DNA of 64,000 nt, from NCBI RefSeq assembly GCF_016907925.1, contig NZ_JAFBCZ010000026.1:1-64000 (forward strand), read 5' to 3'. The notes beneath the pieces are model-generated. The model was not told the DNA's origin. It was given only the letters and a program-made list of their open reading frames with translations, and ran no database searches. Positions 3,611-43,742 of this stretch are shown here, piece after piece (the first letter of the stretch is position 1; every line of letters begins with the position of its first letter). The position numbers and the translations under genes are program-made. Source of the DNA: Herpetosiphon giganteus. Lineage in GTDB: Bacteria > Chloroflexota > Chloroflexia > Chloroflexales > Herpetosiphonaceae.

Positions 3611-3811
3611 TGCACTGGTACATCAGGTTAACCGCCGCCTGATCCCCTCACCCCAACCCCTCTCCCACGTGGCGGGAGAGGGGCTTTCATGCCGTGGTTC
3701 TTGCGCACGGCGTTGGTAAAAACGGCTGCTCCCCCGCGCCCGCGTCCAGTGGGAGAGCGGGCTGGGGGGGGTAAAGGGGACACGGTTGACAAGCCAATGA
3801 ACCAGTACAGG
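3611..3811. repeat. Dispersed repeat family B, complete copy
   Basis: MITE-like unit of about 200 bp. Its ends are related inverted repeats (left CTGCACTGGTACATC, right complement CTGTACTGGTTCATT). Inside are two GC-rich hairpins built from CCCTCACCCC/GGGGTGAGGG-type words. The rest of the 3582-3985 gap shows promoter-like AT-rich DNA before tlyA but no gene. Confidence 0.8.
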
Positions 3812-38120: not shown

Positions 38121-38203
38121 AACGGCTCCATCTATCCAAGGTCAAGGCCCTAGCATGCTACCAAATTCAGGCTTGAGCGCAAATGCCCAATTCGGCCCAC
38201 GCC

Positions 38204-38230
38204 TTGAACCACGCAGGTTTGGGCTATAAT
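38204..38230 (+). promoter_or_regulatory. Promoter for a leaderless LuxR-type regulator mRNA
   Basis: TATAAT at 38225-38230 with TTGAAC at 38204-38209 (15-bp spacing). The ATG of the downstream gene is at 38237, 7 bases after the -10 element, where transcription should start. There is no ribosome-binding site, so the message is predicted to be leaderless. Confidence 0.65.
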
Positions 38231-38236
38231 GCCAGC

Positions 38237-40843
38237 ATGGCAATTGCAATGTTGGCAACCAAACTGATGATTCCAAACCCGCGGACGAGCGTCGTTAATC
38301 GCAGCCAGCTACTGGCGCGGCTTCAACGCGGCCTTGATCGGCGGGTGACCTTGGTTGCAGCGCCAGCAGGCTTTGGCAAAACAACCTTGCTGAGCACATG
38401 GCTGAATCAAACTAGCCATGCCAAAGCGTGGCTAACCCTCGATCAGCGCGATAATGATCCGTTGCGCTGGCTGAGCTATCTGGTGGCAGCGTTGCAAACG
38501 ATTGAGCCAACGCTTGGCCAAAGCGTGCAGCAAGCACTCCAAGCAGCCCAACCAGCCCCAAGCGAGCAACTGCTGGTTAGCTTAATCAATGAGATTCATC
38601 GAATCAAGCAACCAATGCTGCTACTGCTCGATGATTATCATGTGATTGAAAATCAAGCAGTTGACGATATGCTCAATTTTTTGTTGGAGCATATGCCCAA
38701 CTCGATGCATCTTGTGGTGGCAACCCGCGAAGACCCACAAATCCCCTTGGCCCGTTTACGCGCCCGCGGCCAATTGAACGAATTGCGGGTTAGCGATTTA
38801 CGCTTCAATTTGGCTGAAAGTAGCGAATTTCTCACCACCGTCATGGGCTTGCACTTACCCGATCAGGCGATTGCCAAGCTCGAAACCCGGACCGAAGGCT
38901 GGGTTGCTGGGCTACAACTTGCGGCGCTCTCACTCCAAGGCCAGCACGATCCAAGCAGCTTTATCGAAACATTTAGCGGCCAGCATCACTTTATTTTAGA
39001 TTATTTGCTCAGCGAAGTGCTGCACCAGCAAACGCCAGCGATCCAAGCCTTTTTGCTGCAAACCTCGATTCTTGAACGCATGACTGGGCCGTTGTGCAAT
39101 GCAGTTTTGAACCAAACCAACAGTCAAGCCATCCTTACCCAAATCGATCAGGCGAATTTATTTATTGTGGCGCTCGATCAGCAACGCGCTTGGTATCGCT
39201 ATCATCAGCTATTTAGCGATTTACTCCGCCAGCGTTTGGCCCAACAAATCACTCAGCCAGAGCTTGCGGCCCTGCATCAACGGGCCAGCCTTTGGTATCA
39301 ACAGCACGATTTGCTGCTCGAAGCCTTTCAGCATGCCACGCTGGGCCACGATTATCAACGCGCCGAGCAATTGATGCTCCAAATGCCGCTGCACGCCAAT
39401 GGTTTTGTCTCGGCGATGCTCAATTGGCTGGCGAGTTTGCCCAGCACAGTGCTTGATCAACAACCTTCGTTGTGGGTGCGCTATGCGGCAATTTTGCTGG
39501 TGCTAGGCCAAACCAGCGGCGTTGAAGCAAAATTGCAAGCAGCAGAACGTGGCTTACAGCAACAGCCCGATAATGAACACACCCGGGATTTAATTGGCCA
39601 AATTGCCGCCGCGCGCACAACCATCGCCTTAACCCAATATCAAATTGAGACGATTATCGCCCAAGCGCAACGGGCTTTTGCCTATTTGCATCCCCAGAAT
39701 TTGCCATTTCGGGCGACGACCAATTGGGCTTTGGCCTATGCCTATCAAGTGCGCGGCGAACGCCAGAACACGAACATTGCCCTGAGCCAAGCAATCGAAC
39801 TGAGCCAACAAGCCAATGATACGTTTACCCTGATTTTGGCTTTAATCGGCATGGGCCAACTGCAAGAGAGCAACCTAGAGCTGTATCGGGCCGCCGCAAC
39901 CTATCGTCATGTGCTGCAATTGGCGGGCGAGCAGCCGCAGCAAATCATCTACGAGGCCCAACTTGGCTTGGCACGAATTTCCTATCAATGGAACGATTTG
40001 GCCGCCGCCGAGCAGCATGCCCAGCAAAGCCTGCACCTTGCGCTGCAATACGAGCAAGGCATCGATCGCTTTATTTTGTGCGAATTGATGTTGTCCCAAA
40101 TTAAGCTGGCCCACAACGATCTGGCGGGAGCCAAACGGCTGCTTGAGCAAACTGAACAATTGGCGCGCCAGCATAATTTTGTGCAACGCTTTGCTGAAAT
40201 TGCCCATGTGCGAATTCAATTGCTCTTGCGCGAAGCCAAATTGAGCAACGCCAAGCAACTTGCCACCAGCCATCAACTCGCATTTTGCCAAGCCCAGATT
40301 GCCTTGGCCCAAGCTCAGCCAGCAGCGGCAATTACCATCCTAACGCTGCTCCAGCAGCAATCCCAAGCCAACAATTGGCCCGACCAGTTGGTGCAAGCTT
40401 GCTGCTTGTTGGCGCTAGCCTATGCCGCCCAAGGCCAAAACGCACAGGCAATCGAATGGCTCCAACAAGCGCTACCATTGGCAGAGGCCAATCAATTAAT
40501 CCGCAGCTTGCTTGATTATGGCCCTGTAATGCAGCAACTTTTGCATACGGCCCAAGCCCATGGCCTGCACTCGTCACTGATTGATCAAGCACTCCCCATG
40601 TTTAACCATAATTCCTCAATTAAACCCCAAGCAAAGCTGGTCGAGCGGCTGAGCGAGCGCGAAATCGAGGTGCTACAACAGATTGCCGCAGGCTCCACCG
40701 ACCGCGAAATTGGCGAGCGGCTATATCTGTCGATCTACACGGTAAAAGTGCATGCCCGTAATATTTATGCCAAACTTGAGGTCACGAATCGCACCCAAGC
40801 TGTTGCCCGTGCCCGCAGCCTCGGCATCTTGCCCCAAACCTAA
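38237..40843 (+). CDS. MalT-type (STAND) LuxR family transcriptional regulator
   Basis: Large ATP-dependent activator. 868 aa from the ATG beginning MAIAMLATKLMIP, a normal family start; the longer frame lacks support. The P-loop AAPAGFGKTT is at 41-50, the Walker B LLLLDDYHVI at about 128-137, and winged-helix and TPR-like repeats occupy the middle (YRYHQLFSDLLRQRL near 322). The C-terminal LuxR HTH is LSEREIEVLQQIAAG, then DREIGERLYLSIYTVKVHA, near 800-860. The middle is very Gln/Ala-rich. The gene likely regulates a neighbour, such as the DUF4386 fusion 125 bases downstream on the same strand; its ligand is unknown. Confidence 0.92.
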   Translation: MAIAMLATKLMIPNPRTSVVNRSQLLARLQRGLDRRVTLVAAPAGFGKTTLLSTWLNQTSHAKAWLTLDQRDNDPLRWLSYLVAALQTIEPTLGQSVQQALQAAQPAPSEQLLVSLINEIHRIKQPMLLLLDDYHVIENQAVDDMLNFLLEHMPNSMHLVVATREDPQIPLARLRARGQLNELRVSDLRFNLAESSEFLTTVMGLHLPDQAIAKLETRTEGWVAGLQLAALSLQGQHDPSSFIETFSGQHHFILDYLLSEVLHQQTPAIQAFLLQTSILERMTGPLCNAVLNQTNSQAILTQIDQANLFIVALDQQRAWYRYHQLFSDLLRQRLAQQITQPELAALHQRASLWYQQHDLLLEAFQHATLGHDYQRAEQLMLQMPLHANGFVSAMLNWLASLPSTVLDQQPSLWVRYAAILLVLGQTSGVEAKLQAAERGLQQQPDNEHTRDLIGQIAAARTTIALTQYQIETIIAQAQRAFAYLHPQNLPFRATTNWALAYAYQVRGERQNTNIALSQAIELSQQANDTFTLILALIGMGQLQESNLELYRAAATYRHVLQLAGEQPQQIIYEAQLGLARISYQWNDLAAAEQHAQQSLHLALQYEQGIDRFILCELMLSQIKLAHNDLAGAKRLLEQTEQLARQHNFVQRFAEIAHVRIQLLLREAKLSNAKQLATSHQLAFCQAQIALAQAQPAAAITILTLLQQQSQANNWPDQLVQACCLLALAYAAQGQNAQAIEWLQQALPLAEANQLIRSLLDYGPVMQQLLHTAQAHGLHSSLIDQALPMFNHNSSIKPQAKLVERLSEREIEVLQQIAAGSTDREIGERLYLSIYTVKVHARNIYAKLEVTNRTQAVARARSLGILPQT

Positions 40844-40968
40844 AATCCACAGCCAAATGAAAATCCAGCCTACCTCGCCGAATAACTCGTTTGAGGTATG
40901 ACAGGCTGCGCCCCAACTTGTATCCTGCTCACAGATCGAACACGACGCATAGTTCAAAGCAGGAAGGT

Positions 40969-41940
40969 ATGGCAAATTCATCGCCGCATTATCAGATTCA
41001 GATCAAAGGCCAGCTTGACCCAGGTTGGGCTGAATGGTTCGATGATTTAGCCATCAGCCATACGCCGCAAGGCGATACGCTGCTAACTGGCCCAATCGTT
41101 GATCAAGCAGCCTTATATCGGGTTTTGCGCAAAATTCGCGATTCAGGCTTGAGTTTGATTGCAGTCGTGCCACTTGAGCAACCAATTAGCATTTCACAAG
41201 GAGCAAGCACCATGGCCAACCAACGCCGCCACGCCATTCTCATTGGGATCTTTTTTATCTTGGCAGCAGTCAGCTCGATTCTTGGTTTACTCTGGTATGC
41301 GCCGTTGCTAACCGAAAGCGATTATTTGCGCACCGGCGCAGCCAATGCCAACCAAATTGTGTTTGCAGCGCTGATGGAACTGGTTCTCGTGACGACCGCC
41401 GTTGGCACAGCCGTCACGATGTTTCCAATCTTACGTCAATATAGCGAACGCATTGCCTTGGCGCATTTGTGTTTTCGCTTCCTCGAAGCAGTGGTGATTA
41501 CGATTGGAATTGTGGGCATGTTGGCCTTGCTCTCAATCAGCCGCGAATTTAGCAATGCAGCCGCAGCCGATGAGCAAAGCTATCGCGTGGTTGGCACAGC
41601 GTTAATCGCCATCCACGATTGGACATTTATGCTTGGGCCAAATTTCATGCTTGGGTTAAACACAATTATGTATAGCTACATTTTCTTTCAAACCCGCCAG
41701 ATTCCACGGCCAATCGCCACGCTGGGCTTGGTTGGTTCAAGCCTCATTTTTCTTGCATCCCTGTTGGAAATGTTTGGAATTATCGAGCAACTTTCGACTT
41801 GGGGCGCACTCTTGGCAATTCCAGTTGCACTTACCGAAATGAGTTTGGCAATTTGGTTGATTACCAAGGGCTTCAAACCCAACGCAAATGCAGCAAAAAC
41901 CAACTCAAGCCAGCAACTCGTCAATAGCAGCCCAATCTAA
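40969..41940 (+). CDS. Membrane protein: small regulator-associated domain fused to DUF4386
   Basis: 323 aa from the ATG beginning MANSSPHYQIQIKG, with GGAAGG upstream. Residues 1-70 match a family of small stand-alone proteins found beside LuxR/TetR-type regulators (pattern IKGxLDPxWxxWFxxL and PDQAALxxVLxKIRDxxLxL; here KGQLDPGWAEWFDDL and VDQAALYRVLRKIRDSGLSL). Residues from 82 form a DUF4386 membrane domain of six or seven helices (HAILIGIFFILAAVSSILGLL onward, quoted shortened by family call). An internal ATG at 41212 has AAGGAG 9 bases upstream and exactly begins the DUF4386 part. The gene may therefore produce both the fusion and the membrane part alone (inference). Confidence 0.83.
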   Translation: MANSSPHYQIQIKGQLDPGWAEWFDDLAISHTPQGDTLLTGPIVDQAALYRVLRKIRDSGLSLIAVVPLEQPISISQGASTMANQRRHAILIGIFFILAAVSSILGLLWYAPLLTESDYLRTGAANANQIVFAALMELVLVTTAVGTAVTMFPILRQYSERIALAHLCFRFLEAVVITIGIVGMLALLSISREFSNAAAADEQSYRVVGTALIAIHDWTFMLGPNFMLGLNTIMYSYIFFQTRQIPRPIATLGLVGSSLIFLASLLEMFGIIEQLSTWGALLAIPVALTEMSLAIWLITKGFKPNANAAKTNSSQQLVNSSPI

Positions 41941-41956
41941 GCATTTGCGAGAAACG

Positions 41957-42153
41957 GTATAGTGGTTCATTGGATTGCCAATCGGGTTCCCTCACCCCCC
42001 AGCCCCCTCGCCCACTAGACGCGGGCGAGGGGGGCACTCGTTTTTACCAAGGATTTTTCCATGAACCACGGCGTTAAAGCCCCTCGCCCGTTGGACGGGA
42101 GAGGGGTTGGGGTGAGGGGATCAGGCCGTGGTTAACCTGATGAACCACTACAA
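41957..42153. repeat. Dispersed repeat family B, complete copy
   Basis: The ends TATAGTGGTTCATTGG and ATGAACCACTACA (complement GTAGTGGTTCATCAGG) are related inverted repeats. Inside lie the two usual hairpin blocks. The decamer AGAAACGGTA is found just left (41950) and right (42159) of the unit. Confidence 0.85.
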
Positions 42154-42265: not shown

Positions 42266-43300
42266 ATGTCGCAACCCACAGAGCAAGAACTGGTTACCAA
42301 ACGGCTCAAAACTACGGTCTATTGGTTGCTCGGCGGCTCCCTGATCTCATTATTTCTGTATCTGTTTATGGGCGATTTGGTTGCGGTTGCCAGCTTTACC
42401 GTTACCAGTGGGTTGTTAGCCACGGCATTTTGGCTCATCCAACGCCAATACAATCAGCCAGCAGTGGTCTTGATGAACATGGCAGCCTTGAGTTTGGTAA
42501 TTGTTGGCTCGTTTCGCTTTTTCACCTTGCTCTCAATCGCCACCGTGACGATTATTTCAATTGTGCTGGTGCTGCCGTTTGTTGATAGTAAGCGCTTGCT
42601 CGGAATTTGCGGTTTGGCATGGGTCGTCAGCATCGTCAGCATCACCAATCGCCTGCGAATCGATCAAGTTGCTGGCTCTGAGATGCCAGTTCGCGTCATT
42701 CTCAACTCGCTCTCGATTTTGATCATTATGGGCTTGCTTTGGCAAATTCACCGCCAATTGACCACTAGCCTCCAAGCCAGCAACAGCGCCAACCAAGCCT
42801 TGCGCGCCAGCCAACAATCGCTTGAACAGCAAATTGAGCAACGCACCTCAGCCTTACAACGGGCCTTGCGCGATGTCCAAGCCCAAGCAGATAGCCAAGC
42901 GGTGTTGGCTCAACAGTTGGCCGAACAACAAACCACCATTCGCAACCTCAGCGTGCCAATTTTGCCAATCACCCAACATAGCTTGGTCGTGCCCTTGGTT
43001 GGGGCCTTGGATGCAGAGCGCTTGAGCACCTTGGTTGAGCAAATTTTGGCCAATCTCAAAAGCCAACGCACCCGCAACTTGATTCTTGATATTACTGGCG
43101 TGCCAACCTTGGATCGTGATGCAGGCCGAACGTTGCTCAAAGTGAGCAATGCAGCCCGCTTGTTAGGAGCAAGCACGACCCTGATCGGCGTGCGGCCCGA
43201 TGTGGCCGAAATGCTGGTGAGCATCGGGCTGGATTTGCGCTCAATTCGCAGCGAAAAAGATTTGCAAAGCGTGGTGTATAGCCTCGTGCAAACATCCTAA
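42266..43300 (+). CDS. Membrane-anchored RsbR-like STAS domain protein
   Basis: 344 aa from the ATG beginning MSQPTEQELVTKR, with AGGT-type signal upstream; the longer frame begins in a family B repeat. Six hydrophobic segments lie at about 20-185 (LLGGSLISLFLYLFMG first), then a Gln-rich coiled coil (about 190-250). A STAS domain ends the protein: LVVPLVGALDAERLSTLVEQ, LILDITGVPTLDRDAG and ARLLGASTTLIGVRPDVAEML. This is the RsbR/RsbRA type of partner-switching stressosome co-antagonist, here with a membrane sensor. No RsbS/RsbT genes are adjacent, so the pathway is unknown. Confidence 0.85.
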   Translation: MSQPTEQELVTKRLKTTVYWLLGGSLISLFLYLFMGDLVAVASFTVTSGLLATAFWLIQRQYNQPAVVLMNMAALSLVIVGSFRFFTLLSIATVTIISIVLVLPFVDSKRLLGICGLAWVVSIVSITNRLRIDQVAGSEMPVRVILNSLSILIIMGLLWQIHRQLTTSLQASNSANQALRASQQSLEQQIEQRTSALQRALRDVQAQADSQAVLAQQLAEQQTTIRNLSVPILPITQHSLVVPLVGALDAERLSTLVEQILANLKSQRTRNLILDITGVPTLDRDAGRTLLKVSNAARLLGASTTLIGVRPDVAEMLVSIGLDLRSIRSEKDLQSVVYSLVQTS

Positions 43301-43346: not shown

Positions 43347-43742
43347 ATGTTGCTCGTTGCTAGCTACCTTGCCCAAAGCACCATCCATGGCATCGGCGTA
43401 TTTACGGCCAATTTTATTCCCGCCAACACCATTATTTGGGAGTTCAATCCAGCAGTCGATTGGCGCATGAGCGCCGACGACGTTACGGCCTTTCCTGAAC
43501 CCTACCGGAGTGCATTCACTGCCTATATGTATGTTGATGATGAGGGTTATTATGTTTTGTGCGGTGATAATGCGCGCTATTTCAATCATTCAGCAACGCC
43601 CAATTGCGATGATGCAGGAGCCTACACCCGCACCGTGCGCGATATTCAAGCAGGCGAAGAATTGACCTGCGATTATTTTGTGTTCGATGAAATTACCCGC
43701 CAGCACGGGCTTGAGGTCAGTAGTTTTGTTCGGGTCGAGTAA
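43347..43742 (+). CDS. SET-domain protein methyltransferase-like protein
   Basis: 131 aa, essentially only a SET domain, the fold that transfers methyl from SAM to protein lysines. Opening AQSTIHGIGVFTANFIPANT, core RYFNHSATPNCD near 80 and AGEELTCDYFVFDE near 103 match the SET catalytic motifs NHSxxPNC and GEELxxDY. AAGGAT lies 7 bases before the ATG. Post-SET cysteines are absent. Substrate unknown; such short SET proteins occur in many bacteria. A bidirectional terminator follows. Confidence 0.9.
   Translation: MLLVASYLAQSTIHGIGVFTANFIPANTIIWEFNPAVDWRMSADDVTAFPEPYRSAFTAYMYVDDEGYYVLCGDNARYFNHSATPNCDDAGAYTRTVRDIQAGEELTCDYFVFDEITRQHGLEVSSFVRVE

Follow-up and report, generated by a model that had tools for sequence, protein, structure and literature searches.

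A gene in the window (the whole stretch of 64,000 nucleotides of Herpetosiphon giganteus DNA analysed here) fuses a small domain to a DUF4386 membrane protein. On balance, we read it as part of a portable cassette of regulator, operator, modulator and effector, in which modulator and effector have merged in Herpetosiphon into one gene with two starts. In such a cassette, a MalT-like LuxR regulator with its own operator and promoter would be followed by a small protein and an exchangeable effector. The Herpetosiphon effector would be the DUF4386 membrane protein, the stop codon between it and the small protein having been lost, and the single frame would give two products, the fusion, which starts at ATG 40969, and DUF4386 alone, starting at ATG 41212. 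The regulator would bind the candidate operator of its own cassette, and the small domain may act on that regulator as a cassette-encoded modulator, as MalK, MalY and Aes do on MalT. Fusion to a membrane protein would place a fraction of the small domain at the membrane, presumably on its cytoplasmic side, as the charged residues RR precede the first predicted membrane segment of the DUF4386 part.

The fused gene and its internal start

The features of the cassette are collected in Table 1. Residues 91-301 of the fused product match Pfam DUF4386 with an E value of 4.8e-47 (2.2e-47 for the 242-residue product); the score of 161-162 bits compares with a curated cut-off of 27.6, and the match covers positions 1-210 of the 210 in the profile. 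Residues 1-81 hit none of the Pfam or NCBIfam models at E <= 1. AlphaFold2 predicts the full-length product with a mean pLDDT of 90.5, both halves being confident and the model silent on contact between them; the fold had no PDB match at E <= 0.001.

Table 1. Cassette features, with their positions in the window, strand and basis
Feature	Position	Strand	Basis
MalT-like LuxR (STAND/LAL) regulator, 886 aa: ATPase, TPR_MalT, GerE	38183..40843	+	ORF, Pfam, NCBIfam
Palindrome TACCTC-N16-GAGGTA, candidate operator of the cassette	40871..40898	.	one site per genome
Promoter-like ATGACA-17-TATCCT between regulator and fused gene	40898..40926	+	consensus scan, alignment
Fused gene, long product of 323 aa	40969..41940	+	ATG-started open ORF, 323 codons
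Small domain, residues 8-68	40990..41172	+	family profile, AlphaFold2, dN/dS
Variable linker, residues 69-81	41173..41211	+	identity and dN/dS of six species
Internal ribosome-binding site AAGGAG	41198..41203	+	invariant in 6/6 species
Predicted second product, DUF4386 membrane protein alone, 242 aa	41212..41940	+	Pfam, border SD test
DUF4386 (PF14329) match	41239..41871	+	Pfam

The internal ATG is codon 82 of the long frame, and the AAGGAG that stands 8 nt upstream of it is read as codons x-AA-GGA-GCA. The site at the 5' ATG is poorer: AGGAAGG ends 1 nt upstream, and the duplex energy is -3.9 to -4.7 kcal/mol, compared to -7.7 to -8.0 kcal/mol at the internal site. Since the internal site is the stronger by its sequence, DUF4386 alone is probably the more abundant of the two predicted products. 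In the predicted RNA the internal site is not more unpaired than its surroundings (0.28-0.54 versus 0.43-0.50).

We compared six Herpetosiphon genomes, the window's own among them and the others including Herpetosiphon geysericola, H. llansteffanensis and H. aurantiacus DSM 785. Each of the six has two small-domain copies. One is fused to DUF4386, and the second, unfused in every genome, follows a different LuxR-type regulator and precedes a dehydrogenase-type gene. The fused frame, the AAGGAG, the 8-nt spacing and the ATG all recur in the six species, so that a conserved SD and start at the domain border, by which internal in-frame translation is recognized in sequence, are found in six out of six. 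Mean pairwise identity in the fused gene is 87% for the domain, 85.5% for DUF4386 and 54% for the linker (alignment columns 69-83), and the corresponding dN/dS values over the six fused genes are 0.154, 0.085 and 0.69. These values indicate that the small domain is under purifying selection. The linker codons GGA and GCA, which hold the ribosome-binding site, do not vary among the six species, nor does the ATG, and the invariant GGA and GCA sit in the most variable stretch of the fused gene. The pair alone is only moderately unusual, 25 of 94 four-fold codons with a conserved amino acid being identical in all six. GGA encodes 17 of the 125 glycines counted, and 6 of these 17 are the ribosome-binding-site codon. 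In the DUF4386 half the mean synonymous divergence is 0.96, and over that span the linker has acquired neither a stop nor an indel. For the small domain (40990-41172) mean dS is 0.48 in the same six genes, half of the DUF4386 value, which possibly reflects an overlapping signal.

Because the small domain is under selection and no stop precedes DUF4386, the long product would have to be made, and the retained ribosome-binding site implies a second, DUF4386-only product. Conservation thus implies both. A sequence-only reading of the window had described the internal ATG at 41212 as having a good ribosome-binding site exactly at the domain border, and this is borne out by AAGGAG-N8-ATG in all six species. 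Its suggestion of two products gains evolutionary support from the conserved frame and internal site, and the products themselves stay predictions.

Fusions of the small domain in other genomes

The small domain comprises about 60 residues, and the freestanding small protein about 65-80. A family profile built from 11 sequences matches 83 of 400 Chloroflexota genomes. The alignment of 91 members contains one invariant and 13 nearly invariant columns, and a comparison of these members with Pfam gave no convincing match (13 families scattered at E <= 1, the best at E 0.0038). At least 138 small-domain matches were listed outside Herpetosiphon, and 80 stretches were fetched around them. The fetched set takes in all 21 listed matches with an open frame above 200 aa, and fusions are therefore over-represented in it. 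Sixteen of these 21 read into the following gene and five are open upstream, L067 being an ABC ATPase tail; among the non-genus matches listed, read-in fusions are thus 16 of 138. After removal of same-locus duplicates and of L066, which is nearly identical to L065, 97 of 107 domain hits were kept, and 21 of them are fusions (15 outside the genus).

The automatic gene caller for downstream genes erred at L053, L056, L058, the second copy of L059, L061 and L070, and probably also for some singletons; the sizes of downstream clusters are approximate, and fused partners were read by eye instead. They include DUF6326, a zinc-type dehydrogenase, a glyoxalase, an alpha/beta hydrolase, a CPBP/Rce1-like protease and a CMD protein, and moreover a DUF4386-like protein scoring below the cut-off, a second dehydrogenase (L070) and, as judged by eye, membrane-like proteins in L056 and the second copy of L059. 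Where the small gene is separate, the distance to the effector is often 2-200 nt and several pairs overlap by ATGA. The small-gene unit can be repeated, two domain copies standing in tandem at L081, L059/L062 and L128.

At each fusion the border start was defined as the first ATG at least 8 codons past the domain, and a core SD as AGGAG, GGAGG, AAGGA or GAGGT located 18 to 5 nt upstream of the ATG. A core SD is present at 12 of 16 border ATGs (Herpetosiphon counted once), whereas of the 137 remaining in-frame ATGs in these genes 2 have one (Fisher p 7e-13), and the mean duplex energy is -7.2 kcal/mol at border ATGs versus -2.4 kcal/mol at the others (Mann-Whitney p 3e-9), p-values that are too small because the 16 borders represent 9 partner clusters and are not independent. 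Counted by cluster, a passing border is found in 7 of 9. The borders that fail are L056, L061, L065 and L070. L061 fails by two codons, its site being at the next ATG, two codons on; the sites of L056, L065 and L070 are weak, and L070 has a strong 5' site instead. Across these sequences, a ribosome-binding site appears to be mostly kept at the domain border despite unrelated fusion partners.

The same data bear on another account, possible though on the unlikely side, in which the fusions are tolerated read-in: loss of the stop would be nearly neutral as the downstream start is kept, and the long product would only supply the small domain. Unrelated partners and a retained border SD are what it predicts, and 16 fusions in 138 listed matches are about as many as we estimate for chance (the frame fits in one of three cases and 15-20 codons are free of stops in about one half). 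Against this, the fused state in Herpetosiphon has outlasted a mean synonymous divergence of 0.96 with a linker free of stops and indels, although 13 codons are too short a stretch to demonstrate that an open linker is selected for. Tolerated read-in does not conflict with the two products proposed in the cassette explanation.

The neighbouring regulator and its candidate operators

The regulator in front of the fused gene matches TPR_MalT (E 3.1e-53) and GerE (E 3e-17) above the cut-offs and AAA_16 (E 1.9e-6) below it. With an ATPase, a TPR sensor and a C-terminal GerE HTH in one protein of about 900 aa it has the composition of the MalT-like class. The closest NCBIfam model is the MalT equivalog, which it matches with 397 bits compared to a cut-off of 537; thus, the window regulator is not MalT itself. 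The sequence-only reading had assigned the first residues of the fused product to a family usually encoded as a separate small gene beside regulators, and our survey agrees: all six Herpetosiphon genomes contain an unfused copy, and in 62 of 92 small-domain copies (those fetched with 1200 nt or more of upstream sequence; 12 come from Herpetosiphon) a LuxR-type regulator on the same strand ends within 600 nt upstream, the other 30 having no regulator in that interval.

The arrangement extends to plasmids from other phyla. On one of Deinococcus psychrotolerans the small domain follows a LuxR-type regulator, and on one of Candidatus Chlorohelix a LuxR-type regulator and the small domain are followed by an MMPL gene. 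On an Acaryochloris plasmid the domain has a LuxR-type gene about 3.6 kb upstream, in a cluster with DUF6326 genes. A Pseudomonas hit lies in an unannotated record, and a weak Microbacterium hit has no LuxR-type neighbour. The Deinococcus small-domain gene (L171, 4001-4210), located between the regulator and the next gene, is absent from the listed features; the family is therefore probably under-annotated.

Distances between small domains correlate with those between their regulators (r 0.75; 0 of 2000 permutations as high) over the 45 loci in which a regulator 700 aa or longer lies within 700 nt, a set from which all 12 Herpetosiphon loci were dropped because the fetched regulators were truncated. 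Pairs from the same genome, to which species history cannot contribute, give r 0.63 (n=17; Spearman p 0.004, the pairs not being independent). In 27 of the 45 loci, the locus with the closest small domain is also one of the three with the closest regulators, and in 10 the nearest small-domain relatives have the same downstream family, a count affected by gene-calling errors. Judged from these distances, the divergence of the small domain tracks the regulator while the gene behind it gets swapped. The tracking could in part be due to shared descent of linked genes, which would carry along a passive neighbour as well, a concern that the 17 same-genome pairs lessen without dispelling it.

This pattern has to be weighed against the linkage to DUF4386. 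Among the 150 DUF4386 genes listed from the 400 Chloroflexota genomes, 21 lie on the same strand within 400 nt directly downstream of a listed small domain (6 in Herpetosiphon, 15 elsewhere), one shows the wrong order and none the opposite strand; the other 129 are not directly behind a small domain. DUF4386 also forms the largest downstream cluster, 19 genes by approximate count (6 fused in Herpetosiphon and 13 separate), and the 14 cluster genes scanned, from the window and 13 neighbours, all match PF14329 over the cut-off or at E <= 0.001. The linkage of the two families in relatives that the sequence-only reading had proposed to look for is thus present. Together with the persistence of the fusion in six species, it favours the view that the small domain is the functional partner of DUF4386 itself and that the fusion reflects direct contact or direct regulation between the two. 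We regard this as improbable, since the domain also stands before or is fused to dehydrogenases, DUF6326, a hydrolase, a protease, a CMD protein and a glyoxalase, and is found with annotated MMPL and DUF6326 genes on plasmids. Moreover, 129 of the 150 listed DUF4386 genes are elsewhere, and the domain diverges with the regulator (r 0.75), the downstream family being kept in just 10 of 45 loci. The specific partnership with DUF4386 claimed by the sequence-only reading gains no support from these results; the sequences suggest that the claim should move to the regulator, DUF4386 being one of several interchangeable effectors. We found no paper naming DUF4386 or DUF6326, and a search for a description of the cassette brought up no pertinent title or abstract; neither search extends to preprints or subscription papers.

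The gap between regulator and fused gene contains the candidate operator. An exact TACCTC-N16-GAGGTA occurs once per genome in six of six Herpetosiphon genomes, always in this gap, and the reversed control pattern 0 times. With a single site per genome, its regulon-wide use was rejected. A promoter consensus scan of the region found 2 elements versus 1.3 expected, which is weak alone; the promoter-like element is aligned in all six species, as TATCCT or TATGCT. Among 53 gaps between regulator and small gene, AACAC-N4-GTGTCT-like sites (class A) occur in 10 (mean in shuffles 0.0) and ATCACCA...GGTGAT sites (class B; ATCACCACATGTGGTGAT) in 7 (0.01 in shuffles), both motifs having been chosen on the gaps in which they were later counted. 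For A2, a loose operator pattern, there was no enrichment (2 gaps out of 53 versus 3.6 in shuffles). The regulators' HTH domains provide independent support: their distance is 0.206 within class A (8 loci) and 0.240 within class B (7 loci), compared to 0.518 between the classes, a split that 0 of 5000 permutations reached, with L058 placed in class B by eye and L002, L094 and L114 omitted for truncated regulators. The TPR part of the regulators differs far less by class (0.575 and 0.552 within versus 0.614 between). The two palindrome types thus appear to match two types of regulator DNA-binding domain.

The small domain and known regulatory systems

AlphaFold2 predicts a ferredoxin-like beta-(alpha)-beta-beta-alpha-beta fold for the small domain (pLDDT 87.9). 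A sequence search of the PDB gave nothing at E <= 10, and Foldseek nothing at E <= 0.001. VIA-align returned RAM (Lrp/AsnC), ACT, ribosomal S6 permutants and the NosF R-domain of an ABC transporter at Z 6.2-7.5, none being above 8. The domain was not assigned to a known fold family, as the best Z is 7.5 and the matches scatter over several ferredoxin-like families, and because of this spread no function was read from the fold.

ABC ATPases of Ktedonobacteria-type genomes end in a small-family domain (L174, L176-L178, L180, L181), and 6 of 8 ABC ATPase tails score 32-90 bits with the small-family profile, two of the eight (L175 and L189) being mis-extracted or partial. The hhalign probability is 99.4% for the small family versus the ABC tails and 96.6% for DrrA versus the ABC tails. 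PF13732 (DrrA1-3_C) is found below the cut-off in 4 of the 6 ABC proteins with small-family tails, and it is not among the Pfam families matched by the 91 small-family members at E <= 1. Direct homology between the small family and DrrA1-3_C was rejected, the profile comparison not being significant (hhalign 0.8%; DrrA set from 28 of 30 loci). As the link to PF13732 runs via the ABC-tail intermediates alone, the small family is not filed under PF13732. By this route the small domain has a relative in the C-terminal tail of DrrA-type ABC ATPases, connected through the Ktedonobacteria-type tails, which match both the small family and the DrrA profile. Unlike the DrrA-type C-terminal domain, freestanding small copies are without the LEDVFL-type tail, which according to PMC4132065 serves complex formation in DrrA.

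These relationships weigh on the idea that the small frame is a leader that couples or boosts downstream translation, its protein being irrelevant. The short distances and ATGA overlaps between small gene and effector would suit a leader, ATGA-type overlaps having been reported as coupled in 13 of 14 pairs tested (PMC6728339). A dN/dS of 0.154, conserved columns in 91 members, a confident fold and homologues that exist as C-terminal domains of ABC ATPases make it quite improbable. A sequencing error that removed the stop, or a misread frame, has next to no probability: in the window copy a single substitution at 41197-41199 (CAA to TAA) would be enough to produce a stop, but the frame is open in six independent assemblies of different species, and error as the cause was rejected with all six species fused.

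For the cassette reading, the closest known parallel is E. coli MalT, which is held inactive by MalK, the maltose-transporter ATPase, which anchors it at the membrane, and which MalY and Aes inhibit directly, as described in PMC10427625. As in that system, the regulator here is a MalT-like STAND/LuxR protein, and MalK belongs to the ABC ATPases, to whose tails the small domain is related through intermediates. Unlike MalK, MalY and Aes, the putative modulator is a freestanding domain of 60 residues whose gene immediately follows that of the regulator, and the effector is exchangeable. We take the small domain not to be of the fold family of MalK's own C-terminal domain. An ABC-tail relative that stands behind a MalT-like regulator and diverges with it fits a dedicated modulator. 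By this analogy, modulation of its regulator is the most likely role of the small domain, and it is the least certain step of our account.

A bolder form of the cassette reading, which we consider doubtful, is that a domain related to the regulatory tail of ABC ATPases turned into a freestanding, mobile modulator of MalT-like regulators, that loss of the stop ties part of it to the effector, and that the ratio of the two starts sets the feedback. MalK-style control of a STAND regulator could then be placed before almost any effector, stops would be lost repeatedly with the internal start kept and free effector still made, and in Herpetosiphon the regulator would become tethered to the membrane through the membrane protein in the fusion.

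For Cas11b, which is encoded inside cas8b, experiments have shown a second product that starts at an internal methionine on a domain border (PMC11899642). The fused gene likewise has one frame with an internal methionine at the domain border; unlike in cas8b, the site here is deduced from conservation, and the short product would be an effector with freestanding homologues in other genomes. Annotated 'fusion proteins' in such cassettes may hide a second product. For DUF4386 (PF14329) and DUF6326 (PF19851), membrane families that are both fused partners, the proposed cassette would give a first functional, and specifically regulatory, setting, and the small family, which is missing from Pfam and NCBIfam, would gain a context by which to name it, that of a regulator partner. 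With matched pairs of operator and HTH, it may become possible to predict the regulons of many MalT-like regulators that are still uncharacterised. Should modulation of the regulator by the small protein prove true, STAND transcription factors would own a dedicated, exchangeable control subunit.

Elsewhere in the window, a sub-threshold Rfam match to Antizyme_FSE (42075-42122) lies inside a GC-rich intergenic repeat and was taken as chance. That repeat, which contains GGGTGAGGGG, is present in 7 copies, at 3644, 11777, 22939, 23061, 36430, 42110 and 46920, compared to 0.12 expected in shuffles. Finally, the fused gene is followed downstream by genes for a STAS-domain protein (42266-43297) and a bacterial SET-domain protein (43347-43739).
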